NCBI RefSeq assembly: GCF_037201915.1
Contig: NZ_CP147505.1
Span: 2,666,001 to 2,730,000 of the forward strand
Source: Haloplanus sp. CK5-1
GTDB lineage: Archaea > Halobacteriota > Halobacteria > Halobacteriales > Haloferacaceae
Reading direction: 5' to 3'
DNA length: 64,000 bases
Shown here: positions 1 to 13,175 of the stretch, in pieces
How the letters are laid out: each line of letters begins with the position of its first letter
Numbering within the stretch: position 1 is the first letter of the stretch
The notes under the pieces: model-generated
Told to the model about the DNA's origin: nothing
Database searches by the model: none
Seen by the model: only the letters and a program-made list of their open reading frames with translations
Position numbers and translations under genes: made by a program

Positions 1-2326
1 AGTTGTAGGAGACGGTGTCGCCCCGACCGAGCACGTAGGTCAGGTAGACGGCGCTGAGGGCGTCCATTTCGTCGCTGAGGGTCTGGATACGCTCTTCCAT
101 CAGCTGCTCGTCGACGATGTCGCGGATCGTCCCCACTGCGTCGTCGACCGACATCTCGCTCTCCTCGTGGGTGACGTTCGGGAAGTGACGGGAGTACACT
201 TCGAGGCACTTGCCCATCGTCACGGCGAAGATGTCCCCTTGCGTGAGCCGCGAGCCGCTCTCTTCGAGGCGATTGATTTCCTCCTCGGCGCGGAAGTAGA
301 TCTCGTCTTCCAGCGAGCGCCAACTGACCGTTTCGGGGTCTTCCGCTCGCTTCCGACACACCACAATCATGTCGTACTCGATGTTGGCCTTCTCATGAAT
401 ATGGGTCGAGCCACGCATCTCCCCGCGGATGGGGTACAGGGAGGTGACGTAGAATCCTGCGTTGAGCACCGACTTGAGTACCGAACTCCAACCTTCCGTG
501 TCCTTATGATGGAACGTGAAGGCCATGATTCCATCATCCTTCAGCTTGTCGTGGGACTCCGAGAAGACGTTCGTCAGGGTCTCGATGAAATGGCCCTCGT
601 CTCGGAACGTCTCCACGTTGTCCTCTCCCTTACGATCGACGACCGCCTCGCTCGCCTTCGGTGTGAGTTCAGCGGTGAAGTGGTCGTACTCCTCTTCGAG
701 CACCTGCTTGAGCCAGACGTAGTAGAAGTCCGCCACTTCCGCGTACATGACGTTGTCAAAGTACGGTGGGTCAGTGACAACGGCGTCCACGCTCTCGTCC
801 TCGACCGGGAGGTACTCTGAGGTCCCACAGCGGAGGTGGATATTGTAGGTCGCGTCTTCTAGACCTTCGACGGGGTCGCCGATGCGGTCGGGGTCGTCAG
901 TCACGAAGCCTTCTATCTTCCCGACGCCGTCGCGCTGTTTTGTCTCACCGTTTTCGACGTACTTCTCGTAGGGGTTCTGGCAGAATTCCTTGCCTGCTCT
1001 CATCTTGTCGAATTCACCGGAGAATGTTCCTCGCCCATACTCTGTCCCCCAGACGTTATTCTCAACGGGGGTGTGGCGAGCGGTAATCGTGTGCCGCTTA
1101 TAGATCCCAGTGAGCTTATTATATGGCTTATCGTACTCGCAGAACATATTATTGTACGCCAGAGAGCTTGAAAACGCCAATAAGAGGAGTTCCTTGATGT
1201 TTTGATCTTCTATATTGTCGATCTCGCTGAGAATTTTTGAGAGACCGAGTAGCTGTCGAGTGTTAAACATCTGATCGTACCGCTCGTAGCCGTGCTTCCG
1301 AGCGAAGTCAGACGTACCGACGTACCGCTCTGTTTCAGGGATTGGTAGCTCTGATCGCTTTTCTTCAAATTCCGACTCTGCTTCCGCAAACAGTTCTCGG
1401 TCGAACTCCGTCGCAGGTTTGTATCCCTTCTCGTCCGTCTCAGGACAGTAGTATTCGACGGCGTAGAGCGACTCCTCGGGCTTACCGAATCGCTCGACGC
1501 TCTCGATGATCGACATCTCGGGATGCTCGTCACAGTGCGGGCAGGTGTAGTTCTTCCGCGTGACGTGCCCCGCGTCTTTCGGGACGTACTCACAGGAACA
1601 CTCGGGGCAAGTCGTCTCACTACGATAATCGTCCGTCTCGAAGATGTGCCAGCAGTCGGGACAGATAACGTTGTAGTGGTCGTCCTTCGATGACCGAGCA
1701 TTCGAGAGCCGATAGTCCTTGAACAGGGGCACGTTCTCCCCACAGTTCCGACACGGCAACTCCTTCACCCAGAAGTAGTACATCGCGTCGGCGTGCTCGT
1801 CACAGTGCGGACACTCCGTTCGATAGTAGTCCTGAATCTCCTCGCCGACGCTCGCTTCGAGTTCCTCGAACGCGGCGTCGAGTTCGTCTAGTTCGACCGG
1901 CTCGACTTCCTTCTTGACGACGAACCACGCGACGGGGTTCAGTTCGCTCCCGATGGCGTTACACCCCAAGCGGAGCGACTCGACGATGCTCGTCCCGCCG
2001 CCCATGAACGGATCGAGCACGGTTTTCCCGTCGAAGTCGACATCTTCGAGGTAGTATTCCCAGAGCGCGTCAGGGTTGTCCCAGTCGATCTCCGGAAGCC
2101 CGTTCTCCTCTTGGAACGTCGACTGTCGCTCGCCACGGACGGACATCTCCCCGTCGGCGAGAGAGTAGAGTAGCATCGTCCGGAAGACCGAGCCGAGCCG
2201 TCGCGCCCACCACTTGTGCATGGTGTAGACGGGACGGTAGTACCGCTTGGCGTGGGCTTCTTTCTCCGCGATCTCGTTTACCTGATCGATGGGGAACGAG
2301 ATCTCGATCGGGCGTCGATCCGTCAT
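1..2326 (-). CDS. DUF1156-type zinc-ribbon DNA methyltransferase (C-terminus beyond window)
   Basis: Predicted amino-methyltransferase that marks host DNA in a defence or modification module. The 775 residues present hold motif I DPFMGGGT (about residues 105-112), then several CxxC pairs forming zinc ribbons (about residues 172-265, for example CPHC, CRNC, CPDC, CPEC), then catalytic motif IV DPPY at 519-522. Motif order I-IV with inserted zinc ribbons is the layout of the COG1743/DUF1156 adenine-specific methylase family (family assignment from memory). The start is the ATG at 2326, which overlaps the PglZ-like stop by 4 nt (ATGA), so it is the third gene of the operon and translationally coupled. 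No target-recognition domain can be named. The stop codon and any later genes lie outside the window. Confidence 0.88.
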   Translation of the reverse strand, partial: MTDRRPIEISFPIDQVNEIAEKEAHAKRYYRPVYTMHKWWARRLGSVFRTMLLYSLADGEMSVRGERQSTFQEENGLPEIDWDNPDALWEYYLEDVDFDGKTVLDPFMGGGTSIVESLRLGCNAIGSELNPVAWFVVKKEVEPVELDELDAAFEELEASVGEEIQDYYRTECPHCDEHADAMYYFWVKELPCRNCGENVPLFKDYRLSNARSSKDDHYNVICPDCWHIFETDDYRSETTCPECSCEYVPKDAGHVTRKNYTCPHCDEHPEMSIIESVERFGKPEESLYAVEYYCPETDEKGYKPATEFDRELFAEAESEFEEKRSELPIPETERYVGTSDFARKHGYERYDQMFNTRQLLGLSKILSEIDNIEDQNIKELLLLAFSSSLAYNNMFCEYDKPYNKLTGIYKRHTITARHTPVENNVWGTEYGRGTFSGEFDKMRAGKEFCQNPYEKYVENGETKQRDGVGKIEGFVTDDPDRIGDPVEGLEDATYNIHLRCGTSEYLPVEDESVDAVVTDPPYFDNVMYAEVADFYYVWLKQVLEEEYDHFTAELTPKASEAVVDRKGEDNVETFRDEGHFIETLTNVFSESHDKLKDDGIMAFTFHHKDTEGWSSVLKSVLNAGFYVTSLYPIRGEMRGSTHIHEKANIEYDMIVVCRKRAEDPETVSWRSLEDEIYFRAEEEINRLEESGSRLTQGDIFAVTMGKCLEVYSRHFPNVTHEESEMSVDDAVGTIRDIVDEQLMEERIQTLSDEMDALSAVYLTYVLGRGDTVSYN

Positions 2327-3222
2327 CGCTGAACCTCCAGACGAGGGGTAAGGCATTCCATGAGACTCAGACCACCGTGTTGATAGACGCTGTATTTCCC
2401 GCGAACCGGCCAAGTGTACCGACCGACCGGCATATAGTAACCGTCCGCCTCGACCGCCAGCCGATCCTCGACGAGGTCGTCCGCGTCAGCCTCGTCGACG
2501 CTGATGAATCGCTGACCGCCGAACGTGTCTCGAAGTCTGTTCTTCTCGTGCTCGCTAATGGCGAAGGAGTATCCCGACTCCTCCCGCACGTAGCCGTGAT
2601 CCGCCCCGACGACGATCCGATCCGCGTCGAGTTGGTCGAGGATCGACCGGAACACGTAGAGGGAGTCGTCGTAGGCGTCCTCGACCGACGATAGCTCGGT
2701 CTTCCCCTCCTGAATGTTCTCCAGCAGGGCGTCGGGGTATCGGCTCCAGACGAACCGTTCGTCGCCCGACAGCGAGGGATCGAGGTCTCGAACCGTCGCG
2801 GAGGGGTACTCCCGTTCGAGATCCGAACACCCGACACGGTTCTTGTACGGTGTCGTCTCCGAGGGAACCGTCGCATACGAGTAACTCACGTCCACGTCGT
2901 ACCCATCCGCTTCCAGCGCCGAGGCAAACAGTGCAGCCTCGCGGACGCTCATCGCGTCCATGACGAGGAACGCACCGTCGTCGGGAACTTCGATCGACGC
3001 CTCGTTGACACAGCGCCACGGGAGTACCTCGCTGTAAAACTCCCAGTAGATGTCGACGAGCGTCCGCTCCAATTCAACCGATGCCCACTCTCGGTCGTGG
3101 TCGTAGTGCTCGCTTGGACCTTCAGACGGCGGCCACCAGATGTCCCACAGGACCTCCCAAACGACATCTACGGGATCGTCCGCCTCGACTAGCGACTCCA
3201 GTCGCTCACTCGTCAGCGTCAC
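2323..3222 (-). CDS. Compact PglZ-like alkaline-phosphatase-superfamily protein
   Basis: A 299-residue protein that I assign to the PglZ fold from motifs. Asp89 sits in a strand-turn context (LVMDAMSVREA), Asp208-His209-Gly210 follow a hydrophobic strand (IVVGADHG), and the C-terminus has an HGG-x-S-x-x-E arrangement (His282, Glu289) followed by Pro. These match the metal-binding D, DHG and HGG..E..P signatures of PglZ and alkaline phosphatases. BREX and Pgl PglZ proteins are usually about 800 residues, so this is a minimal version with about 80 N-terminal residues of unknown function. It starts 17 nt inside the end of the ATPase gene and its stop overlaps the methylase start, so the three act as one operon. 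Its substrate is unknown. The fold is inferred, not shown. Confidence 0.72.
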   Translation of the reverse strand: MTLTSERLESLVEADDPVDVVWEVLWDIWWPPSEGPSEHYDHDREWASVELERTLVDIYWEFYSEVLPWRCVNEASIEVPDDGAFLVMDAMSVREAALFASALEADGYDVDVSYSYATVPSETTPYKNRVGCSDLEREYPSATVRDLDPSLSGDERFVWSRYPDALLENIQEGKTELSSVEDAYDDSLYVFRSILDQLDADRIVVGADHGYVREESGYSFAISEHEKNRLRDTFGGQRFISVDEADADDLVEDRLAVEADGYYMPVGRYTWPVRGKYSVYQHGGLSLMECLTPRLEVQR

Positions 3223-5704
3223 GCTCGATCACCACCGTTGCCTCGATCTTCTCGCCGTCCGGAAGTCCGTCGATGAGGTCGATGAGTTCCGACTTCGAGA
3301 GGGCGTCGACATCGTAGGACAGTCGGACGTGCGTGGCAGTGTCGGTCGTCTCGTTGATTCTCGATTCGGCGGTGCTCTTGAGCACCCGTGCCGAGTTCCC
3401 TTCGAGAGAGACTTCGACGGTTTCGGTCGACCGCTCCGTCCCGGTGGATTCGGTCTCGTCGTCTCCGTTCGAATCATCCTCGATTTTGTCGTCCGTTTCA
3501 TCATCTCCTCCCCAGTCGGTAATGCCTCCTCCCGAGTCGTCACCCCCTGTTTCGTCTTCGTCATCATCGGACTCTTCGCTGAATACCGACTCCGGGAGCT
3601 TGTCGGGATGTCGAATCGTCATCTCGTCCTCGATTTCCGTGGGATACTGACCGAGATCGCCGACGTAGAAGTTGGCTCGATTGCCTTCGAGTACGATATC
3701 GCCCTTCCGCTGGAGTTCGCTCACGGCGGAGTAGAACACACCTTCGTCGAGAAGGACAGGGAGGCGACGGAACTGGAGGAAGTCGTTGAGAAGTGATCCG
3801 ACGCGAATACCACCCTCGTTCTCCCTGACGCGGGCAACGATTTCCTCCCCGACGTAGGTCGTGTCCTTCCCAATCCGTTCCTTGACCGCTTCGATGTCGG
3901 GATCGACCGTGATTCGACGGAGCCGGAGATCACCGTCCGGGGTACTACTCCACTTGACCCACTTCCCGTAGCGATCCTCCAATTCTTTCCGGAGCTGTCG
4001 GTACTCGTCGCGGATCAGCGGCTCAAGCTCACCCTGCTCGTCTTCGACCTTGCCGCGAAGATTCTCCGCTCCAAACACCCGCGCCGCCTTACTGACGATG
4101 TCGTCGTCTTCGAGGACGCTTTGTTTCGGCGTGATGAACTGGACGGTGTTCTGATACCGTCGCTCCTCGAAGAACGCACTCAGTTCCGACGTGAGTGTCC
4201 CGTTGGAGATGTTCTCCAGCGTCACCACGAACGTCTGCTTGCTCTCGTCCGGTACGTCGTCGTAGCCGTAGACGTAGACACTGCCGTCGAACACCTCGTC
4301 TCGGACAACGTCCACGAGCTTCTCGACGGCCCGATCACGGTTCTCTTCGAGGATGCGCTCCTGCTCGCGGGTGATCAGCGCGGTCAGCTTCGGGTCTTCG
4401 GTGATGAAGTAGCTCCCGTCCTGTTTGTCGAGGTAGTGAGCCGTGCCGTAGAGTCCCTCTAGCGTCATGTGGAGGCGGTCGACGGTCGTCTCGTCGGGCT
4501 TGAACGTTCCCAGAAGGCACTGGGTCGTCGAAGCCATCTGGGATCGATCGTCGAGCGTGTAGAGGAGGATCACCTGAAGCAGGTCGACTCCGTGCTCGGT
4601 TTCTCCAAGCTCCTCTTTGTCCGAGGTGAATCGGTCGAACAGCGTTCGGTTGATCCCCCGGAACGCCCGCGGGTTGACATCCGAGGTGACGACGAGATCC
4701 GTCTCGTCGTGTACCTGACGGACGGTGTCGGCGAGGACGTTCATCACGCCCCGGACGTTCTGGCGTTCGCGGGCTGCCTCGTAGATACTGTCGAGCAGGT
4801 CGAGCAACTCCGGATGGAAGGGATAGGTCTCGACCATCCGATTCTCGTAGCGTTTCGGCTCGTCGATCTCGATCGGGAACTCGTAGCTGTCGACGTACTG
4901 CTCCACGACCGATCGAACCGTGCTCTCGTCGATGTCGTCCGGCGTCCCCTCGAACAGCCGGTGGATGATGATCCGTTCGCGGTCGCCCGTGGCGTTCAGA
5001 TCTTCGGCGTGCGGATTCGTTCGGTCGAGGATCTCCTTCAGCCGGTCGCTCCTGTCGAGGAGCGTGATGAAAGCGAAGAGATCCCCGTTCGGATCGTTGG
5101 CGACTTCGAGAAGGTTCTGGAGGAAGAAGCGATTGCGTTCGAGCAGATCTCTGTCGGCCTCCTCGGAGAACGATTCCCACCACGACTCGATTTCGTCGAA
5201 GAACACACCGAAGGTGCCGTTCTCGGCCAACTTCTCGACGTGATCGGTCGTGGGATACCGATCGATCTCCTCCAATACGTCCTCTCGCCCCGCACTACGA
5301 TAGATCGGCTCCCAGATCAGATCCGCATCGGTCTCGCTCGTCGAGACGATGGCGGCATCGGAGTCCGTCGGGAGGTCGATCGGGATGTCCCACTCGTCGG
5401 CCCACGATTGGGCGACAGTTGGGTGATTGAACATATGGTAGAGCACGAGTAGCCCGTGGGACTTACCGGAGCCATACGGTCCGGTAAGCATGATTCCGCC
5501 CTGACTGTCTCGCCCGTTGAGCTTGTCGGCGACTCGATCGAAGATGTTCCGGAGGGCGTTCGAGGGGTACGTAGCAGTGAGCAAGCGATTCGGATCGTTC
5601 TCAAGTCGCTCGTCATCGCCAGTGACCTTGTGGGCTTGGAGGACCCCTTGGAATCGTCCTTCGAGGACTTCGTCGCGGGGAGTGAGAAGTTCGGAGATTT
5701 GCAT
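3206..5704 (-). CDS. DUF499-type AAA+ ATPase of a BREX-like module
   Basis: An 832-residue P-loop ATPase and first gene of the operon. Walker A is GPYGSGKS (residues 75-82) and Walker B is FFDEIE (about 168-173). The long helical middle resembles the DUF499/COG1483 family, whose role in Pgl and BREX-type loci parallels PglY/BrxC (family knowledge). A winged-helix-like stretch lies around residues 640-690. A very acidic low-complexity linker (about 735-780) leads to a small C-terminal domain. I chose ATG 5704 (MQISELLTPRDE) over upstream in-frame starts because promoter-like AT-rich sequence lies just above it. It probably powers DNA translocation or complex remodelling together with the PglZ-like and methylase partners. 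Confidence 0.85.
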   Translation of the reverse strand: MQISELLTPRDEVLEGRFQGVLQAHKVTGDDERLENDPNRLLTATYPSNALRNIFDRVADKLNGRDSQGGIMLTGPYGSGKSHGLLVLYHMFNHPTVAQSWADEWDIPIDLPTDSDAAIVSTSETDADLIWEPIYRSAGREDVLEEIDRYPTTDHVEKLAENGTFGVFFDEIESWWESFSEEADRDLLERNRFFLQNLLEVANDPNGDLFAFITLLDRSDRLKEILDRTNPHAEDLNATGDRERIIIHRLFEGTPDDIDESTVRSVVEQYVDSYEFPIEIDEPKRYENRMVETYPFHPELLDLLDSIYEAARERQNVRGVMNVLADTVRQVHDETDLVVTSDVNPRAFRGINRTLFDRFTSDKEELGETEHGVDLLQVILLYTLDDRSQMASTTQCLLGTFKPDETTVDRLHMTLEGLYGTAHYLDKQDGSYFITEDPKLTALITREQERILEENRDRAVEKLVDVVRDEVFDGSVYVYGYDDVPDESKQTFVVTLENISNGTLTSELSAFFEERRYQNTVQFITPKQSVLEDDDIVSKAARVFGAENLRGKVEDEQGELEPLIRDEYRQLRKELEDRYGKWVKWSSTPDGDLRLRRITVDPDIEAVKERIGKDTTYVGEEIVARVRENEGGIRVGSLLNDFLQFRRLPVLLDEGVFYSAVSELQRKGDIVLEGNRANFYVGDLGQYPTEIEDEMTIRHPDKLPESVFSEESDDDEDETGGDDSGGGITDWGGDDETDDKIEDDSNGDDETESTGTERSTETVEVSLEGNSARVLKSTAESRINETTDTATHVRLSYDVDALSKSELIDLIDGLPDGEKIEATVVIERDADE

Positions 5705-5723
5705 GGGAGTGTATGCTTGGTCT

Positions 5724-5750
5724 GTCGATAAGAGCGAGGGTGAATAATAG
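5724..5750 (-). promoter_or_regulatory. Probable promoter of the BREX-like operon
   Basis: Two AT-rich TATA-like stretches lie 20-46 nt above the chosen ATG at 5704 (minus-strand CTTATCGA and CTATTATTC). Either could place the transcript start at or just before the ATG, as is usual for leaderless haloarchaeal mRNAs. I cannot decide between them. Confidence 0.35.
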
Positions 5751-5805
5751 GTGGGGTTGGCTTCGAAGGGGAAGATTGACCCTCTGAGGTTAGATTGACA
5801 CATTA

Positions 5806-5823
5806 CGTCTGAGCCTTCAGACG
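5806..5823. repeat. Palindrome CGTCTGA-GCCT-TCAGACG
   Basis: A perfect 7-bp inverted repeat with a 4-bp spacer, lying between the divergent operon start (5704) and the small gene at 5915. Related palindromes and half-sites occur at 8157, 8207-8225, 8311, 11188-11206, 11243 and 11270-11289, always in the island. It may be an operator or a recombination site; the sequence alone does not say. Confidence 0.6.
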
Positions 5824-6135: not shown

Positions 6136-8115
6136 ATGGCAACTACGAACCCAACACCCAAAGCTTCGGCGAATAGCTCGATCGACACGCTGGAAGATGT
6201 CCGTAATCGAGTCGTTTCTACAATCGAGGATGCACTCGATAAGCAGAGTCCGAGTTTAATTGATGCACTACCTGCAACTGGGAAGAGTCGCGGCCTTGTT
6301 GAGGCTATCAACCGAACAGGCGAACAGGTAGTTATCTTCACCCAGCGGGGTCGGAAAGAGCAGTATGATCAGTATAAAAAGTGGTGTCGTGACTTCGGGC
6401 TTACCTGTAAAACGTTGCCAGCAGTTGATGAGCTATGCCCGACGTTCGGTGAAAACCACGGCGACACTCAACAGCCAATACACGCCCTCCGGAACGCCGG
6501 TGCATCTCCCAGTCATATCCACGATCGGTTAGACCTTCCCTGTCAGGAATCGGGACCGTGTCCATACGAGAAAGCAATCGACTTCGACCCTGACAACTAC
6601 GATGTCCTTGTTGGTCATCCAAAGCACGCCTATGTTGAGGAATACGTCGAAAATCGGGTCCCAGTCTTCGACGAGTTCCCCGGAGACGCTTATATCACCG
6701 ATATTGAGGACACAGCTGATGTCGTGAGTACCTTCCTCCGAGATCGGGGACTGCTATTCGATGACTACGCGGACCTTCTACAGAATCGAGACAAGGAGTA
6801 TCTGCGGCGGATAGCACTCGACCAACTCACGCAGGTCTCACTGATTGACGAGCAATCTCTCTTCCGGAAGAATATCGAAAAGAGGCACAAACTTGCCGGT
6901 CTCTGTGTTCTAACGCTGCTCAAAGGCGAGGATCTCGGCAACGGATGGGAGTCAGCCATTCTTGGCGGAAACCGAGTTGGCGTGTTCAACCGTAATGAAG
7001 GCACTGTCCACATTCTCAATCCGCCGGGTCTTCCAGAACACGTCCTAGGTCTTGATGGCACACCCACGAAGCCGATGTGGGATTTGGCACTGGGGTTTTA
7101 CGACCGAAATCGACGACTGGACCATCAGCAAGTGCTTGACGAAACTGAGCGCCAACAGTACGTGACGGCCATCCAAAATCTACGGATAATCCCGACTACG
7201 ACCAACGTCCGCCCGTACTCTGGCGGGACTACAAAATCCGACCGAGATGCATCGTTACTCAACGAGGTTGAAAGACAGCACACCGGGACGAAGGGACTCA
7301 TCTCGTCTAGGCGCGGTCTTGATGATCTCAAGGAACAGGTAGGCGAGCTTGATGGATTGGAGACGGCATACTTTGGGAATCTAATCGGGTCGAATGAGCT
7401 TAATGACGTTGATGTTGGAGTCATCTTTGGATCTCCTCACTACGGGAACGATGTAATCAAAAAATGGACCGCTCTCGCCGGTGTTGCTGGGAAGTCAAAC
7501 GGTAAAAGTGGGCTCGACAAATCATACGGGGAGTTCGGTGACAAAATCCTTCAGCATATGCGTGAACATCGTGTACTGCAAGCTCTCTTCCGGTTTGCGA
7601 GACAGGGTGATGGAGCGACAGTGTACGTCGACACTATCGCCTTACCTGACTGGATTCCAGTTGTTTCGAACCCTGAAGAGACTACTATCGACACATGGTC
7701 GTCAGCCGAGCAAGATATCATCGGATCACTCAAACAACTTGAGGAAGCGAGGACAAAGAAGATTGCAGACGAAGCAGACCGTCATCCCCGGACGGTCAGA
7801 GCGGTTCTCGGAGACCTTCCAACCGATTTGATTTCGGAACGTCGTGCCGAAGATGGACGAGGTGGAGCGAAAGTCTGGATTGACAGCGGAATTGACTCCC
7901 GCAACCCATATGGACAGGTCAACCTCCCGGCTCCAAGGTCACCGACTCGTTTTTCGGAACAATCCCGTTGTAGGGAGTCTAAGGGAATTGTTCCGAAAAA
8001 ATCGTCTCGTCAGTTAAGAGTCCAGCGAGAAAGGAAGCAGCAGGCCGAGTTCCAGCGACGACGAGGTCGACAAATTCAGCAAATGCAGATGGAACGGTTG
8101 TACGGATCTGGTTGA
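6136..8115 (+). CDS. Helicase-like P-loop protein of a mobile element, unknown function
   Basis: A 659-residue protein. A P-loop-like LPATGKS is at residues 45-51, and a Walker-B-like VFDEFP at 177-182 resembles the DEAD/DEAH motif. Between them are Cys84, Cys91, Cys101, Cys136 and Cys142, which could hold zinc or an iron-sulfur cluster as in XPD/DinG helicases (inference). Near the C-terminus a helix-turn-helix-like stretch (KIADEADRHPRTVRAVL) is followed by a basic, Gln/Arg-rich tail. Base composition is clearly less GC-rich than the chromosome, which fits transfer. Plasmid or provirus replication helicase/primase is a plausible role, but I do not recognise the family. A long inverted repeat lies inside the 3' end of the gene. 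Confidence 0.75.
   Translation: MATTNPTPKASANSSIDTLEDVRNRVVSTIEDALDKQSPSLIDALPATGKSRGLVEAINRTGEQVVIFTQRGRKEQYDQYKKWCRDFGLTCKTLPAVDELCPTFGENHGDTQQPIHALRNAGASPSHIHDRLDLPCQESGPCPYEKAIDFDPDNYDVLVGHPKHAYVEEYVENRVPVFDEFPGDAYITDIEDTADVVSTFLRDRGLLFDDYADLLQNRDKEYLRRIALDQLTQVSLIDEQSLFRKNIEKRHKLAGLCVLTLLKGEDLGNGWESAILGGNRVGVFNRNEGTVHILNPPGLPEHVLGLDGTPTKPMWDLALGFYDRNRRLDHQQVLDETERQQYVTAIQNLRIIPTTTNVRPYSGGTTKSDRDASLLNEVERQHTGTKGLISSRRGLDDLKEQVGELDGLETAYFGNLIGSNELNDVDVGVIFGSPHYGNDVIKKWTALAGVAGKSNGKSGLDKSYGEFGDKILQHMREHRVLQALFRFARQGDGATVYVDTIALPDWIPVVSNPEETTIDTWSSAEQDIIGSLKQLEEARTKKIADEADRHPRTVRAVLGDLPTDLISERRAEDGRGGAKVWIDSGIDSRNPYGQVNLPAPRSPTRFSEQSRCRESKGIVPKKSSRQLRVQRERKQQAEFQRRRGRQIQQMQMERLYGSG
7950..8000. 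repeat. Long inverted repeat inside the helicase-like gene
   Basis: The left arm 7950-7966 (TTTTTCGGAACAATCCC) pairs with the right arm 7983-8000 (GGGAATTGTTCCGAAAAA) except for a single unpaired base. The loop is 16 nt. It is within codons near the protein C-terminus. This is far longer than expected by chance and could be a replication-origin element, a protein-binding site or a transcription-attenuating hairpin. Confidence 0.8.
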
Positions 8116-8326: not shown

Positions 8327-8349
8327 GTGTTTAGTTCGAATCTTTACCG
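8324..8349 (+). repeat. Left terminal inverted repeat of IS630-type element
   Basis: This 26-bp end begins ATAGTGTTTAG and finishes TTTACCG. It matches the reverse complement of 9422-9447 at both ends (7 + 3 + 7 identical bases and a divergent centre). The TA at 8325-8326 is the left target dinucleotide. Confidence 0.8.
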
Positions 8350-9444
8350 GTGAGATACGGCCAGATGTTCGGTTCGGTGATCGCGCTCAATCCTCGTGGA
8401 ATGCATTCTTTCAGCGTCGAGAGATCTGGCATAAGGCGATACTTGAACCACTCTTGCAATTGGTCCCAGCACCCTTCGACAGCGTTCAATTCGGGAAGTT
8501 TCGACGGGAAGTACCACACTTCGAGATCATCCCCTCGCACGCACGAGACCGAACTGTCTCCGACAGTTTCGGTCTCGCGCTCACCACTCACGTGCTCCCA
8601 CAGATCCCTCGCGTAGAAGTAACCCGCTCGATCCAGAAACACCACTAACTCCTCACCGAACTTGTCTTTCAGCGCTTCTAACAGCCGAATCCCGTGGTTC
8701 CGTGTGAGATTCTCTTCTGTCCAGCAGAAGAAGCTGTCACCGTCGTCGGTGACAGCGCCCAGCACCGTCACTGAATCCCACGCTGTTGCAACCTCTATTG
8801 TCGGGTTTGAGCCAATTGGGTAGAAGCCACGTCGCTGAACAGTTCCGACGTGCTTGGTGAACTGATCGACAACAACGACAGTTTTCTCGGTTAGTTCGGG
8901 CCGTTTTTTTCGACTGTCTCCTGAAACTCAGTTTTCTCTTCAGGGTCGGCTTCATGATGTTGAGGCCGTGCTGTCCGCAAGGACAGCCCGGCCTCTTTCA
9001 ACAAGTCATACGCGTAGGTTTCGTGGTATTCGACGCCGTATTCCTCTTTGGCGTGATGAAGCAAGAGTTTCGCTGACCACGCTTGCTGGTCGTATCCGAG
9101 TTCGGTCGGCGGCTGTTGCAACTGCTCGAACAGTCGCTCACGATCTTTGCCCTCGATTTTTGCTGGACCTCCTGGTCGAGGAGCGTCGTAAGGTGCCTGC
9201 TCGATCGGTTCTTCCTTGAACCGATCGAGCCAGTTGCGAATCGTTTTCTCGACAACACCGTGGCGGTCAGCCAGTGTATCCAGTTGATCGCCCTTCTTGC
9301 GCCCGATCGCCGCGAGAACACGTTCTCGCGGCTTCCCTTCGTCGATCTGGTCCTTGAGATCGTAGAGTTCTTCGAGCGTGATATCGTCAAGCCGACCCAT
9401 TACCAACGCCAGCGTCTCTATCGGTAAAACAGTTCCCTAGACAC
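8327..9444 (-). mobile_element. IS630-type insertion sequence, complete (1118 bp)
   Basis: A single transposase gene fills the element. Imperfect terminal inverted repeats (8324-8349 and 9422-9447) are flanked by TA on both sides (8325-8326 and 9445-9446), the target-site duplication of the IS630/Tc1/mariner group. The ends and the DDE residues are intact, so it may still be active. It was inserted in the gap between the helicase-like gene and the PadR-like regulator, next to a CGTCTGA half-site; the right flank begins TCAGAC. Confidence 0.88.
8331..9400 (-). CDS. IS630-type transposase, two frames joined by a likely -1 frameshift
   Basis: Frame A (9400 to 8891, 169 residues) is the N-terminal DNA-binding part with helix-turn-helix segments (DTLADRHGVVEKTIRNWL). 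Frame B (to 8331) carries the DDE catalytic core: first Asp in VVVVDQF, second in VVFLDRAGYF, and Glu in LPELNAVEGCW. The two frames meet at a run of seven A on the coding strand (8904-8910 on plus), read A-AAA-AAC in frame A; slipping back one base continues directly into frame B with CGG. This is a canonical slippery heptamer, and IS630 elements are known to use frameshifting. A simple homopolymer mutation is the alternative. ATG 9400 was preferred to an upstream TTG. Confidence 0.85.
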
Positions 9445-9579: not shown

Positions 9580-9816
9580 TCAGTTCCGGTCGGTCAGAGC
9601 CTTCAATAGGTACTCGCCATTCTCCGTCAGTCCGTAGATCTTCTTGTCCTCGGAGTCATCGACGACCTCAATCATGCCCTCTTGACGCAGTTCCTTCAGG
9701 TGAGTGTAGATGTATCCATGAGAGAGGTCAAGGCGCTCCGCAAGGAGATACCCGTGCGCTTGCTCCTCGTCTAGCGCCTCCAAGATTCGAATCTTCGTCT
9801 CCGGCACCAGTCCCAT
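9580..9816 (-). CDS. PadR-like winged-helix transcriptional regulator
   Basis: A 78-residue DNA-binding protein. It has an N-terminal helix (PETKIRILEALDEEQAHGYLL), a helix-turn-helix (ERLDLSHGYIYTHLKELRQ) and a wing ending IYGLTENGEYLL, the usual PadR layout without the C-terminal dimer helix. I chose ATG 9816 (MGLVPETK) because an upstream in-frame extension has no PadR similarity. It is divergent from the small-gene operon starting at 9900, with a conserved 22-bp element (9871-9892) in the gap between them. That makes it a candidate regulator of that operon and perhaps of the protease-nuclease gene downstream (inference). Confidence 0.8.
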   Translation of the reverse strand: MGLVPETKIRILEALDEEQAHGYLLAERLDLSHGYIYTHLKELRQEGMIEVVDDSEDKKIYGLTENGEYLLKALTDRN

Positions 9817-9870
9817 CACAGAAATCTCTGACCGATGGGATGGAAAGCAATAGAACAGCTTTCTCTGAGG

Positions 9871-9892
9871 GGTCAGCGAAAACAAACAAGTA
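9871..9892 (+). promoter_or_regulatory. Shared 22-bp promoter element, copy 1
   Basis: Begins GGTCAGCGAAAAC and ends AACAAGTA. It is identical to 11325-11346 except for one base. It sits 29 nt before ATG 9900, in the divergent gap next to the PadR-like gene. The GAAAAC core resembles a BRE, so the element may combine a promoter with an operator. Confidence 0.6.
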
Positions 9893-10920: not shown

Positions 10921-11293
10921 GCGGGGAACGACGACCACAGTCGACGCTGGGATCGTCGACACCACCACAGGGGCGGATGAGAAAGGTTCGAGCGATCAAC
11001 TGGGGACACACACCTACGAGATTCCAATACCTGTTAGGGTCGTCTACAGGACTTTGCGTGACCTGAGAACGGATCTTGTCTCTTTAGTTGTGAAGACGGT
11101 CAGGACGGTGCGATCTATGAGGTTTCCTCGACTCTTCCGGAGGCTCGAAGAACAATTGTACGGACAGATCATCGAGATACGAGGAAGACTCGCTGAAGGT
11201 TCAGACGAAGCCTTGCCTGAGCACTGGAGTCCATCCACGATCCGTCTGAACGCTCGAACGAAAGTCAGTCCGTCTGAAGGTACAGACGGCTGA
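10886..11293 (+). CDS. Possible basic protein overlapping the previous gene
   Basis: An ORF of about 135 residues that overlaps the end of the 117-residue gene in another frame. Upstream starts at 10853 (GTG) and 10877 (ATG) also exist. The middle has a hydrophobic-basic stretch (IPVRVVYRTLRDLRTDLVSL) and helices rich in Arg. The last 40 codons run over three copies of the island's palindromic repeat, so the C-terminus may not be selected. I include it because codons 35-95 look protein-like, but it may be spurious. Confidence 0.35.
   Translation: MRQGATPSTTSERGTTTTVDAGIVDTTTGADEKGSSDQLGTHTYEIPIPVRVVYRTLRDLRTDLVSLVVKTVRTVRSMRFPRLFRRLEEQLYGQIIEIRGRLAEGSDEALPEHWSPSTIRLNARTKVSPSEGTDG
11188..11206 (+). 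repeat. Island repeat, second copy of ACTCGCTGAAGGTTCAGAC
   Basis: Identical over 19 bp to 8207-8225. It is followed by a half-site at 11243 and the perfect palindrome at 11270-11289. Confidence 0.65.
11270..11289. repeat. Palindrome CCGTCTG-AAGGTA-CAGACGG
   Basis: Perfect 7-bp arms with a 6-bp spacer, 35 bp before the promoter element of the HtpX-Mrr gene. Same family as 5806-5823. Confidence 0.65.
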
Positions 11294-11324
11294 TCTGATT
11301 CTCGTCCGAAGTGGGTTCTGTATG

Positions 11325-11346
11325 GGTCAGCGAAAACTAACAAGTA
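11325..11346 (+). promoter_or_regulatory. Shared 22-bp promoter element, copy 2
   Basis: Differs from 9871-9892 by one base. A TATA-like GAATAATATT (11351-11360) follows, about 24 nt before ATG 11384. This suggests that the HtpX-Mrr gene and the small-gene operon share a regulator. Confidence 0.6.
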
Positions 11347-11383
11347 ACGTGAATAATATTTGCGTCCCACGGGGGGATTGTCG

Positions 11384-12724
11384 ATGAGAGATCTCAGTTT
11401 GACGATCCGGATGGGCATCGCCAGTACCGTCTTGATGGGTGTGTACGCACTCATCGGACTGCTTCTGTTCGCAATCGGTGGCATATGGGTCGCTGTCGTG
11501 GGGCTTCCCCTGCTCGTAGTGCTCCAGTACCTCGTAACGGTTCAATTTCCCCTGTGGACAGAAGAGAGTAGACAAATCACACCTGACGATCACCCAGAGC
11601 TACACGAGCGAGCGGATCGGATCGCCGACGAGTTAGACATCCCGAAGCCCAAGATGTACCTGATCGAGAGCGACCGCTTGAATGCCTTCGCGCTAGGTCG
11701 GCGAGGAAGCGGGAAGGTGTTCCTCCACAGGGGTCTCGTTCAGCGAATGTCGCTTGACGAGTTAGAGCCGATCGTCGCTCATGAATTCGCTCATCTTCGG
11801 AATCGAGATTCAATCCTGATGGGTCTCGGGACTTCTGTCGTTACTCTCGTCTCATCCGGTCTGTTCATCATCTTCCTTCTCGCCTCGCTGGATTCCGAGC
11901 ACCCTTGGCTCGTCCGTCTCGTTGGTGGGGCCGTAAGCATCTGCGTTCACCTTTTCCTCCTCATCTTCGTCGGAATGGTGTCCCGTTACCGCGAGTACGT
12001 TGCCGACGAGGATGCCGTTCGAGTCACAGGGCGCTACGACGGGATGCGAAGTGCGCTGGAGAAGCTACGCTTGGAGAAACGACGTGTCGATGAGGTAGAT
12101 ATGAGCGCGAGCCGGAGCGCGATCAGCTTCGTCGACTTCTCAGGTGGGATAGCGAGTAGTCTACTCGCAACCCATCCCTCGATGGATAAGCGTATTTCTC
12201 GGATTGAACGGCTGGAGTCGGAAGCTGAAGAGATCCCTGACACCCAAGGAGTACCGAGCCAGCCAGACACTGAGACTACCGAAGAGGACTCACCAACGAC
12301 TACACTGGGTGAACTCCCCGACCAACAGTTACTGGCCACGCTCCAGTCGATGGACGAGTACGAGTTCGAACACCTCGTGGCCGAGCTATGGAACGAGATC
12401 GGATGGCGAACGTCGGTGACTACCGCATCGGTGGATCGAGGTATAGACGTGATCGCCGAGCAGGATTCACCTGTCCCACAGAAACAGATCATTCAGGCCA
12501 AGCGGTACAGTTCGGACAACCCCGTGAGCAGCAGCGAGGTTCAGCAGTATGCGGGTCTGTATGCTCAAGAGGATAATGTGGATGCAGTGATCGTCGTAAC
12601 GACCGGACGCTTCACCTCGAACGCATCGGAGGTCGCGGTAGACTCGAACGTCAAGCTCGTCGATGGGGAAGACCTGTGCAAACTGATTCGAGAGGTAGAT
12701 CGAGACTTCTCACTGGTTGACTGA
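11384..12724 (+). CDS. HtpX-type M48 membrane protease fused to an Mrr-type endonuclease domain
   Basis: A 446-residue fusion. Two N-terminal membrane helices (about 11-55) precede the zinc-protease motif HEFAH (133-137), another hydrophobic pair (about 150-200) and the third zinc ligand Glu204 in REYVAD; this is the HtpX layout. After a Ser/Thr/Glu-rich linker (285-305), residues 320-425 form a restriction-endonuclease-like domain: helix DEYEFEHLVAELW, catalytic Asp355 in GIDVIA and Gln371-Ala-Lys373 (QAKRY), the Mrr PD-(D/E)xK signature. Both active sites look intact. The C-terminal nuclease would face the cytoplasm if the topology is as in HtpX. Such a fusion fits stress or phage defence, which is inference. 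ATG 11384 follows a TATA-like box; a TTG 24 nt upstream is less likely. Confidence 0.87.
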   Translation: MRDLSLTIRMGIASTVLMGVYALIGLLLFAIGGIWVAVVGLPLLVVLQYLVTVQFPLWTEESRQITPDDHPELHERADRIADELDIPKPKMYLIESDRLNAFALGRRGSGKVFLHRGLVQRMSLDELEPIVAHEFAHLRNRDSILMGLGTSVVTLVSSGLFIIFLLASLDSEHPWLVRLVGGAVSICVHLFLLIFVGMVSRYREYVADEDAVRVTGRYDGMRSALEKLRLEKRRVDEVDMSASRSAISFVDFSGGIASSLLATHPSMDKRISRIERLESEAEEIPDTQGVPSQPDTETTEEDSPTTTLGELPDQQLLATLQSMDEYEFEHLVAELWNEIGWRTSVTTASVDRGIDVIAEQDSPVPQKQIIQAKRYSSDNPVSSSEVQQYAGLYAQEDNVDAVIVVTTGRFTSNASEVAVDSNVKLVDGEDLCKLIREVDRDFSLVD

Positions 12725-13103
12725 GAGGGGATACCGTCGTCACGTATTCGGTGGGGTATCATGGGCGTGTAGCACCGTCTCTGGCAACCGTTCGAGTAGG
12801 ATTGATGCGTCTCTCCGAAACATCTCGCATTCCTCCGAAGGTTCCCATAGGGCCGCTCATACCCGTCTTCCGAGACCCACAGGGCACTTTGTAGGTAACC
12901 TCGTCCACTGCACACGCATCGGGGACCGCTGAGGTGACAAAGCATATTGATCTGGCCCGTATGATTCAATACGAACGCCAGACGGAGCCGACCCCCGACT
13001 CGACGCGGGTTCGACTCTCGCTACGCGGTGACGCGGGAGTACATAAATGAAGACGGAATATCCCGATGCTGTCCGGTAAATCCTAATCGCTGTTGAGGAA
13101 AAC
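12725..13103. other. Junction between island and tRNA-Arg, no clear gene
   Basis: 379 nt between the HtpX-Mrr gene and the tRNA 3' end. I see no convincing gene apart from a 29-codon ORF (12961-13050). A stretch around 13006-13027 resembles the tRNA T-arm and acceptor in inverted orientation (about 19 of 24 bases), but this may be chance. Confidence 0.4.
12961..13050 (+). CDS. Possible 29-residue ORF
   Basis: ATG 12961 to TGA 13048-13050, with an AT-rich AAGCATATTG about 25 nt upstream that could act as a TATA box for a leaderless mRNA. The peptide (starts MIQYERQTEP, ends DAGVHK) has no family I know. It may be a remnant of a longer gene or simply chance. Confidence 0.2.
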   Translation: MIQYERQTEPTPDSTRVRLSLRGDAGVHK

Positions 13104-13175
13104 GGGCGTGGCGGGATTCGAACCCGCGGTCTAGAGGTTAGGAACCTCTCGCCCTGTCCGCTAGGCCACACGCCC
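13104..13175 (-). tRNA. tRNA-Arg (anticodon CCT)
   Basis: A full 72-nt cloverleaf can be drawn: acceptor GGGCGTG/CACGCCC, D stem GCCT/GGGC, anticodon stem AGAGG/CCTCT with loop TTCCTAA (anticodon CCT), variable AGACC, and T stem GCGGG/CCCGC with loop TTCGAAT. There is no intron and no encoded CCA. The 3' end faces the accessory region, as expected when an element has integrated at a tRNA gene. Confidence 0.95.

Follow-up and report, generated by a model that had tools for sequence, protein, structure and literature searches.

The window (the whole stretch of 64,000 nucleotides analysed, from contig NZ_CP147505.1 of Haloplanus sp. CK5-1) contains a gene that joins an M48 zinc metalloprotease and an Mrr-type nuclease in one frame. 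Both halves of the product look functional, and the protein probably serves, anchored in the membrane, to attack invading DNA. The gene closes a 17.1-kb integrated element and is followed by tRNA-Arg(CCT). The features of the element and of the fusion gene are listed in Table 1.

Table 1 Features of the element and of the fusion gene, in window coordinates
Feature	Position	Strand	Evidence or remark
DUF1156 N6/N4 DNA methylase, extending leftward beyond the window	1..2326	-	Pfam N6_N4_Mtase E 1.8e-16, DUF1156 E 2e-6
PglZ-like protein, 299 aa	2323..3222	-	PADLOC PglZ E 1.6e-7; Pfam PglZ below cut-off
DUF499/HmaC-like AAA+ ATPase, 865 aa	3206..5803	-	PADLOC HmaC E 2.4e-23; Pfam DUF499 E 3.6e-11
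659-aa element protein	6136..8115	+	No family match; relative in the G391 element
PadR-family winged-helix regulator, 79 aa from ATG	9580..9819	-	Pfam PF03551 E 8.7e-9
Second copy of the shared motif, between PadR (-) and a 159-aa gene (+)	9870..9892	+	Kept in the G391 and G173 elements
Two palindromic GTCTGAANNTTCAGAC-type sites upstream of the fusion (11191, 11272)	11191..11287		Two further sites, at 5807 and 8210
Shared 22-23-bp motif before the fusion gene	11324..11346	+	Found genome-wide at two places when up to 3 mismatches are allowed
M48-Mrr fusion gene, 446 aa	11384..12724	+	Open frame; G391 has a second copy (90% identity)
N-terminal two-helix membrane hairpin, residues ~4-59	11384..11560	+	Hydropathy; AF2 helices H4-32, H34-59
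M48 metalloprotease domain, residues 69-276; HEFAH 133-137, Glu204; further membrane helices ~143-203	11588..12211	+	Pfam PF01435 E 1.8e-30; Foldseek to Ste24p/ZMPSTE24/HtpX
Linker, residues 281-318	12224..12337	+	45% identical in G391 vs 92-98% for the flanking domains; low pLDDT around 294-302
Mrr_cat PD-(D/E)xK nuclease domain, residues 320-435; E329, D355, Q371, K373	12341..12688	+	Pfam PF04471 E 1.5e-27; alignment
Right att, 28-bp exact repeat over the tRNA-Arg(CCT) 3' end	13097..13124		Other copy left of the window at G000:C1:2661957-2661984

Domain architecture and catalytic residues

The frame is open throughout from ATG to TGA. Upstream extension is possible to a TTG at 11360, and the ATG at 11384 is the likelier start because an AT-rich TATA-like stretch (AATAATATTT, 11352-11361) and a G-run (11371-11376) were seen before it on inspection of the sequence. 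The initial annotation had described an HtpX-type protease fused to an Mrr-type nuclease domain, and the two-domain architecture was confirmed by Pfam, where Peptidase_M48 (106.6 bits, cut-off 20.3) and Mrr_cat (96.4 bits, cut-off 21) both scored far above threshold. The residue numbers given there were also correct, and both active sites are complete. The zinc site is H133-E134-F-A-H137 with E204 as third ligand, and the nuclease site includes D355, Q371 and K373. When haloarchaeal homologues were aligned, H133, E134, H137, E204 and D208 were invariant in 44 of 44 M48 proteins, and E329, D351, D355, Q371, K373 and Y375 in all 36 Mrr domains. Hydropathy gave four membrane segments (the hairpin 4-59, then 143-172 and 174-203). 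The protein thus combines an HtpX-type zinc site (HExxH...E in a membrane protein) with the Mrr_cat domain and intact catalytic residues of an Mrr type IV enzyme.

The N-terminal winged-helix DNA-recognition domain of Mrr was not found in the fusion, in which M48, M56 and nuclease families alone matched Pfam at E up to 1. Since no other DNA-recognition domain was found either, the earlier proposal that the nuclease cuts modified DNA is weakened. No sensor domain was identified in the fusion.

An AF2 model was built with 44 M48 rows alone. In most of the M48 part its pLDDT is about 80-97; as a consequence of this choice of rows, the Mrr half is weak (24-41 at 341-370). When the model was compared with the PDB using Foldseek, it matched Ste24p (E 5e-6), ZMPSTE24 and the HtpX domain, as well as two restriction enzymes, MspJI and AspBHI (prob 0.99-1.00, E 0.03-0.14). 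Because model confidence is lower in the Mrr part, the Mrr identification rests on Pfam and the alignment.

Conservation and distribution

A second copy of the fusion (446 aa, 90% identical) was found in another species of the genus (genome G391), which rules out a frameshift or misassembly artefact. Loss of catalytic residues among homologues was named in the initial annotation as a refutation of its reading; the G391 fusion retains every one of them. In the comparison of the two genes (Nei-Gojobori, NG86), dN/dS was.051/.325 for the whole gene,.036/.424 (about 0.085) for the M48 domain and.011/.215 (about 0.05) for the Mrr domain, which is among the best-conserved parts. The linker (residues 281-318) gave a dN of.41 and a dS of.47 with 45% amino acid identity. 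Given the low ratios in both domains against.41/.47 in the linker, the domains appear to be under strong purifying selection with both activities kept, and the linker appears close to neutral and freely drifting. This is the pattern one would expect for two working domains on a flexible tether.

Homologues with both domains were counted in 2 of the 12 genomes examined in the genus and in 2 of the 170 examined in the family to which the window belongs. In two further large haloarchaeal families the count was zero (0/146 and 0/125, 271 genomes, at E 1e-70); these searches had no internal positive, although fusions already known reach about 1e-290. Samples of the class (391 genomes) and of the phylum (345 genomes) gave the window's own copy as the sole fusion. 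No match covering 80% of the query was present among 72,556 plasmid and 50,697 phage records, and two scans of viral contigs returned no relatives. A scan of genome contigs, which covers bacterial chromosomes and reaches close relatives only, returned 25 relatives, every match being confined to the M48 part. By these counts the fusion is rare in haloarchaea. The elements that carry the two known fusions are homologous, which points to one event of fusion.

Proposed role

Our preferred reading, held tentatively, is that the fusion is a cargo defence effector of the tRNA-integrated element, namely a membrane-anchored Mrr-type nuclease with an HtpX-like M48 anchor and proteolytic control. The four membrane helices would hold both catalytic domains in the cytoplasm, a topology suggested by the HtpX/Ste24 precedent, in which the catalytic domain faces the cytoplasm (PMC9263693), and by the need for access to DNA. 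This would keep the nuclease at the membrane, the entry site of foreign DNA. As a conjectured trigger, infection or damage to the envelope might activate the M48 site, and this site might cleave in cis or in trans, with the fast-drifting linker as the obvious cis site. E. coli HtpX cleaves itself. Cleavage would free or unmask the nuclease, and DNA would be cut. The element's PadR regulator probably controls the fusion gene through a shared motif (see below).

The defence role is one that we infer. The initial annotation had raised the sensing of phage entry as one option, and a link to virus defence gains some support because the element carries BREX/Hma-like genes. The nearest non-fused M48 relative (in genome G082) also lies amid defence-type genes. 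Points against the preferred reading are that neither a sensor nor a DNA-recognition domain was identified, that the two fusions go back to one event, and that the Mrr and M48 neighbours in G082 are not an obligate pair. We consider it possible, with less conviction, that the protein is a protease-gated restriction enzyme, in which the M48 half would respond to infection or foreign DNA by cutting itself (or PadR) and so turn on the fused nuclease.

If true, protease gating would mean that an immune effector which cuts DNA is controlled by proteolysis inside a single polypeptide. With both activities in one polypeptide, the role of the protease in defence would be directly testable by two point mutants. 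The fusion would also show the cellular placement of a restriction nuclease and how host DNA is spared.

The Mrr half

The Mrr half has many haloarchaeal relatives, mostly 40-60% identical. Because 17 of the 29 haloarchaeal proteins of this Mrr subfamily (L061, L102, L103, L105-L107, L110-L117, L119, L120, L124) carry predicted membrane segments, membrane tethering of Mrr appears to be a recurrent theme, in which the protease anchor would be the new part. The PADLOC candidate PDC-S02 also matches the fusion, mainly through the Mrr part. In those of these proteins that were inspected, the Mrr domain is N-terminal to plain TM segments and there is no protease. Membrane-tethered Mrr nucleases seem common in haloarchaea, and some of the proteins with membrane segments also have zinc ribbons. 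Mrr type IV endonucleases such as Haloferax Mrr (HVO_0682), which restricts GATC-methylated DNA (PMC7776575, PMC6471742), have the Mrr_cat fold and the D/QxK site in common with the fusion, whereas the fusion carries a membrane protease in place of the N-terminal recognition domain.

The 17 relatives with membrane segments and without a protease would agree with an M48 half that is a mere anchor, its proteolysis vestigial or unrelated, so that the fusion is a membrane-tethered Mrr like the others with no proteolytic switch. However, neither fusion has lost an M48 ligand or the catalytic Glu, and the M48 domain is constrained (dN/dS 0.085); a mere anchor would need neither. We regard this explanation as unlikely.

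The integrative element and its cargo

The two att copies lie 17,140 bp apart, and the left one adjoins a tyrosine integrase. The GC content is 52-61% within the element and mostly 64-74% beyond it. Integrase, att repeats, tRNA target and composition shift are all those of an integrative element. Three BREX/Hma-like genes are present (DUF1156 methylase, PglZ-like, DUF499/HmaC-like), and among the element genes scanned no helicase or further BREX core gene was found, so the full BREX/Hma core set was not recovered. The element also contains IS remnants and several small genes. An IS630-like transposase at window 8331-9406 is split into a DDE_3 piece and a separate HTH_33/32 piece.

The three BREX/Hma-like genes and a gene for a 132-aa protein form a four-gene module (window 1-5803 and leftward), with a gene order conserved across several of the family's genomes (G173, G065, G424 and G113; L137-L140) at 46-92% identity. 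The module matches no complete known defence system and is a candidate BREX/Hma-like system.

The same element occupies the same tRNA in G391. In a third genome of the genus, G173, the element is also present at this tRNA, with att copies at both ends and closely similar genes (integrase 94%, PadR 92%, DUF499 90%). There, a DUF5677 gene (L137:3595-4677) occupies the slot beside the tRNA in place of the fusion. Since the sister element holds another gene in that slot, the fusion is exchangeable cargo on a defence-type element. The DUF5677 protein is possibly the product of another defence gene.

A place next to the att, where cargo is exchanged from element to element, would also suit a gene for element maintenance, that is, an addiction or anti-rival function that would kill or restrict cells losing the element or receiving a competitor, and would not act against viruses. 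No antitoxin-like partner was recognised, however, and the neighbouring genes are of restriction type, which makes such a function improbable.

Shared motifs and regulation

When the genome (3.24 Mb) was searched at up to 3 mismatches, the motif GGTCAGCGAAAACNAACAAGTA occurred exactly twice, before PadR and before the fusion. Both copies are retained in G391, one with 3 changes, and G173, which has no fusion, retains the PadR copy alone. The palindrome GTCTGAANNTTCAGAC was found at four sites in the window (0.15 expected), all within the element and mostly intergenic, and two of the four fall in the 200 bp before the fusion. GTCTGAANNTTCAGAC is a likely operator of an element regulator. The presence of GGTCAGCGAAAACNAACAAGTA and GTCTGAANNTTCAGAC before the fusion suggests that it is controlled by regulators of the element through shared motifs, and PadR probably acts through GGTCAGCGAAAACNAACAAGTA.

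BlaR1 and BlaI are a pair of metalloprotease and winged-helix repressor. By analogy, the Mrr domain might be a DNA-sensing input and the protease the output, which, once foreign DNA is sensed, would cleave the PadR repressor and derepress the element genes and the fusion. The motif that the fusion and PadR promoters have in common, and that is found nowhere else in the genome, would suit such signalling. The model of the fusion also resembles BlaR1 (Foldseek prob 0.92-0.94), and the G082 relative matches Pfam M56/BlaR1 at E 3e-6, below cut-off. In the case of the fold, however, the similarity is weak (E 0.02); GGTCAGCGAAAACNAACAAGTA is not palindromic, unlike usual PadR sites; and the catalytic residues of Mrr are strictly conserved, although a mere sensor could do without them. 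BlaR1/MecR1 (M56) and the fusion are alike as membrane zinc proteases with remote fold similarity and a winged-helix regulator at hand, but they belong to different peptidase families, and BlaR1/MecR1 has an extracellular penicillin sensor where the fusion has a cytoplasmic nuclease. We consider signalling of this kind rather improbable.

The M48 half and its relatives

The M48 half has the HExxH + Glu zinc site and the 4-TM layout of HtpX/Ste24. It is not an HtpX orthologue, which weakens this part of the initial annotation. The best HtpX equivalog score in NCBIfam was 164 bits, about half of the 341-bit cut-off. A tree of 60 M48 proteins places the M48 half with the G082 protein (51% identical, SH-aLRT 99) and apart from the genome's own HtpX proteins; branches in this tree are long and the deep placement is unsure. 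Because of the score below cut-off and the separate clade, the fusion is best classified as other than an HtpX orthologue. The C-terminal nuclease and the location on a mobile element set it further apart from HtpX/Ste24.

A quality-control protease with the duty of HtpX that gained its nuclease domain by chance, with no joint role, would agree with a widespread HtpX-like domain and a rare fusion in two species, but it is improbable, as the genome already holds two other M48 proteins (HtpX-like; 29.6 and 32.7% identical to the M48 half) from which the fusion clade stands apart, and the Mrr domain is so well conserved.

A separate Mrr nuclease gene precedes the G082 M48 gene by 93 bp, and the two belong to a run of SNF2 helicase, CxxC protein, Mrr, M48, 807-aa HhH protein and DprA-like protein; the frames after this run were read by eye, without a family scan, as McrC/McrB. 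Near 55 other M48 loci, no Mrr gene was found in the 1.5-8 kb flanks examined (0/55). Six genomes with relatives of the G082 Mrr gene, most of them with the entire SNF2-CxxC-Mrr trio, have no adjoining M48. Thus, M48 and Mrr were rejected as a conserved two-gene pair: they are adjacent in G082, yet the pairing is not obligate. In view of these six genomes, the association in G082 could be one of defence-island proximity and is no proof of partnership.

Metallopeptidase genes beside restriction systems are already known, and haloarchaea often tether Mrr to the membrane. The RRDM island of E. coli (RptR-RMS-DarTG-M48) is a tested defence island with its own repressor, in which an M48-family metallopeptidase accompanies a type I restriction system (PMC12255303). 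There the M48 is a separate gene, and the likeness to the fusion is at the level of the M48 family. A literature search, which was not exhaustive, returned no paper describing a protease-Mrr fusion and no description of what metallopeptidases beside restriction systems do in defence.

The trio of SNF2 helicase, 675-aa CxxC protein and Mrr nuclease (L059:3997-8526; L086-L091) is conserved in haloarchaea. Its Mrr is present in 7 of 391 genomes; in G313, recovery of the CxxC protein was partial and no match to the helicase was obtained. This Mrr is similar to the ZorD C-terminus, and the trio looks like a split ZorD-type system. In the M48 searches, two matches with identical scores were obtained in the same genome (G425:C1:49305 and 2879563), which possibly reflect a duplicated stretch or a contig-end overlap.
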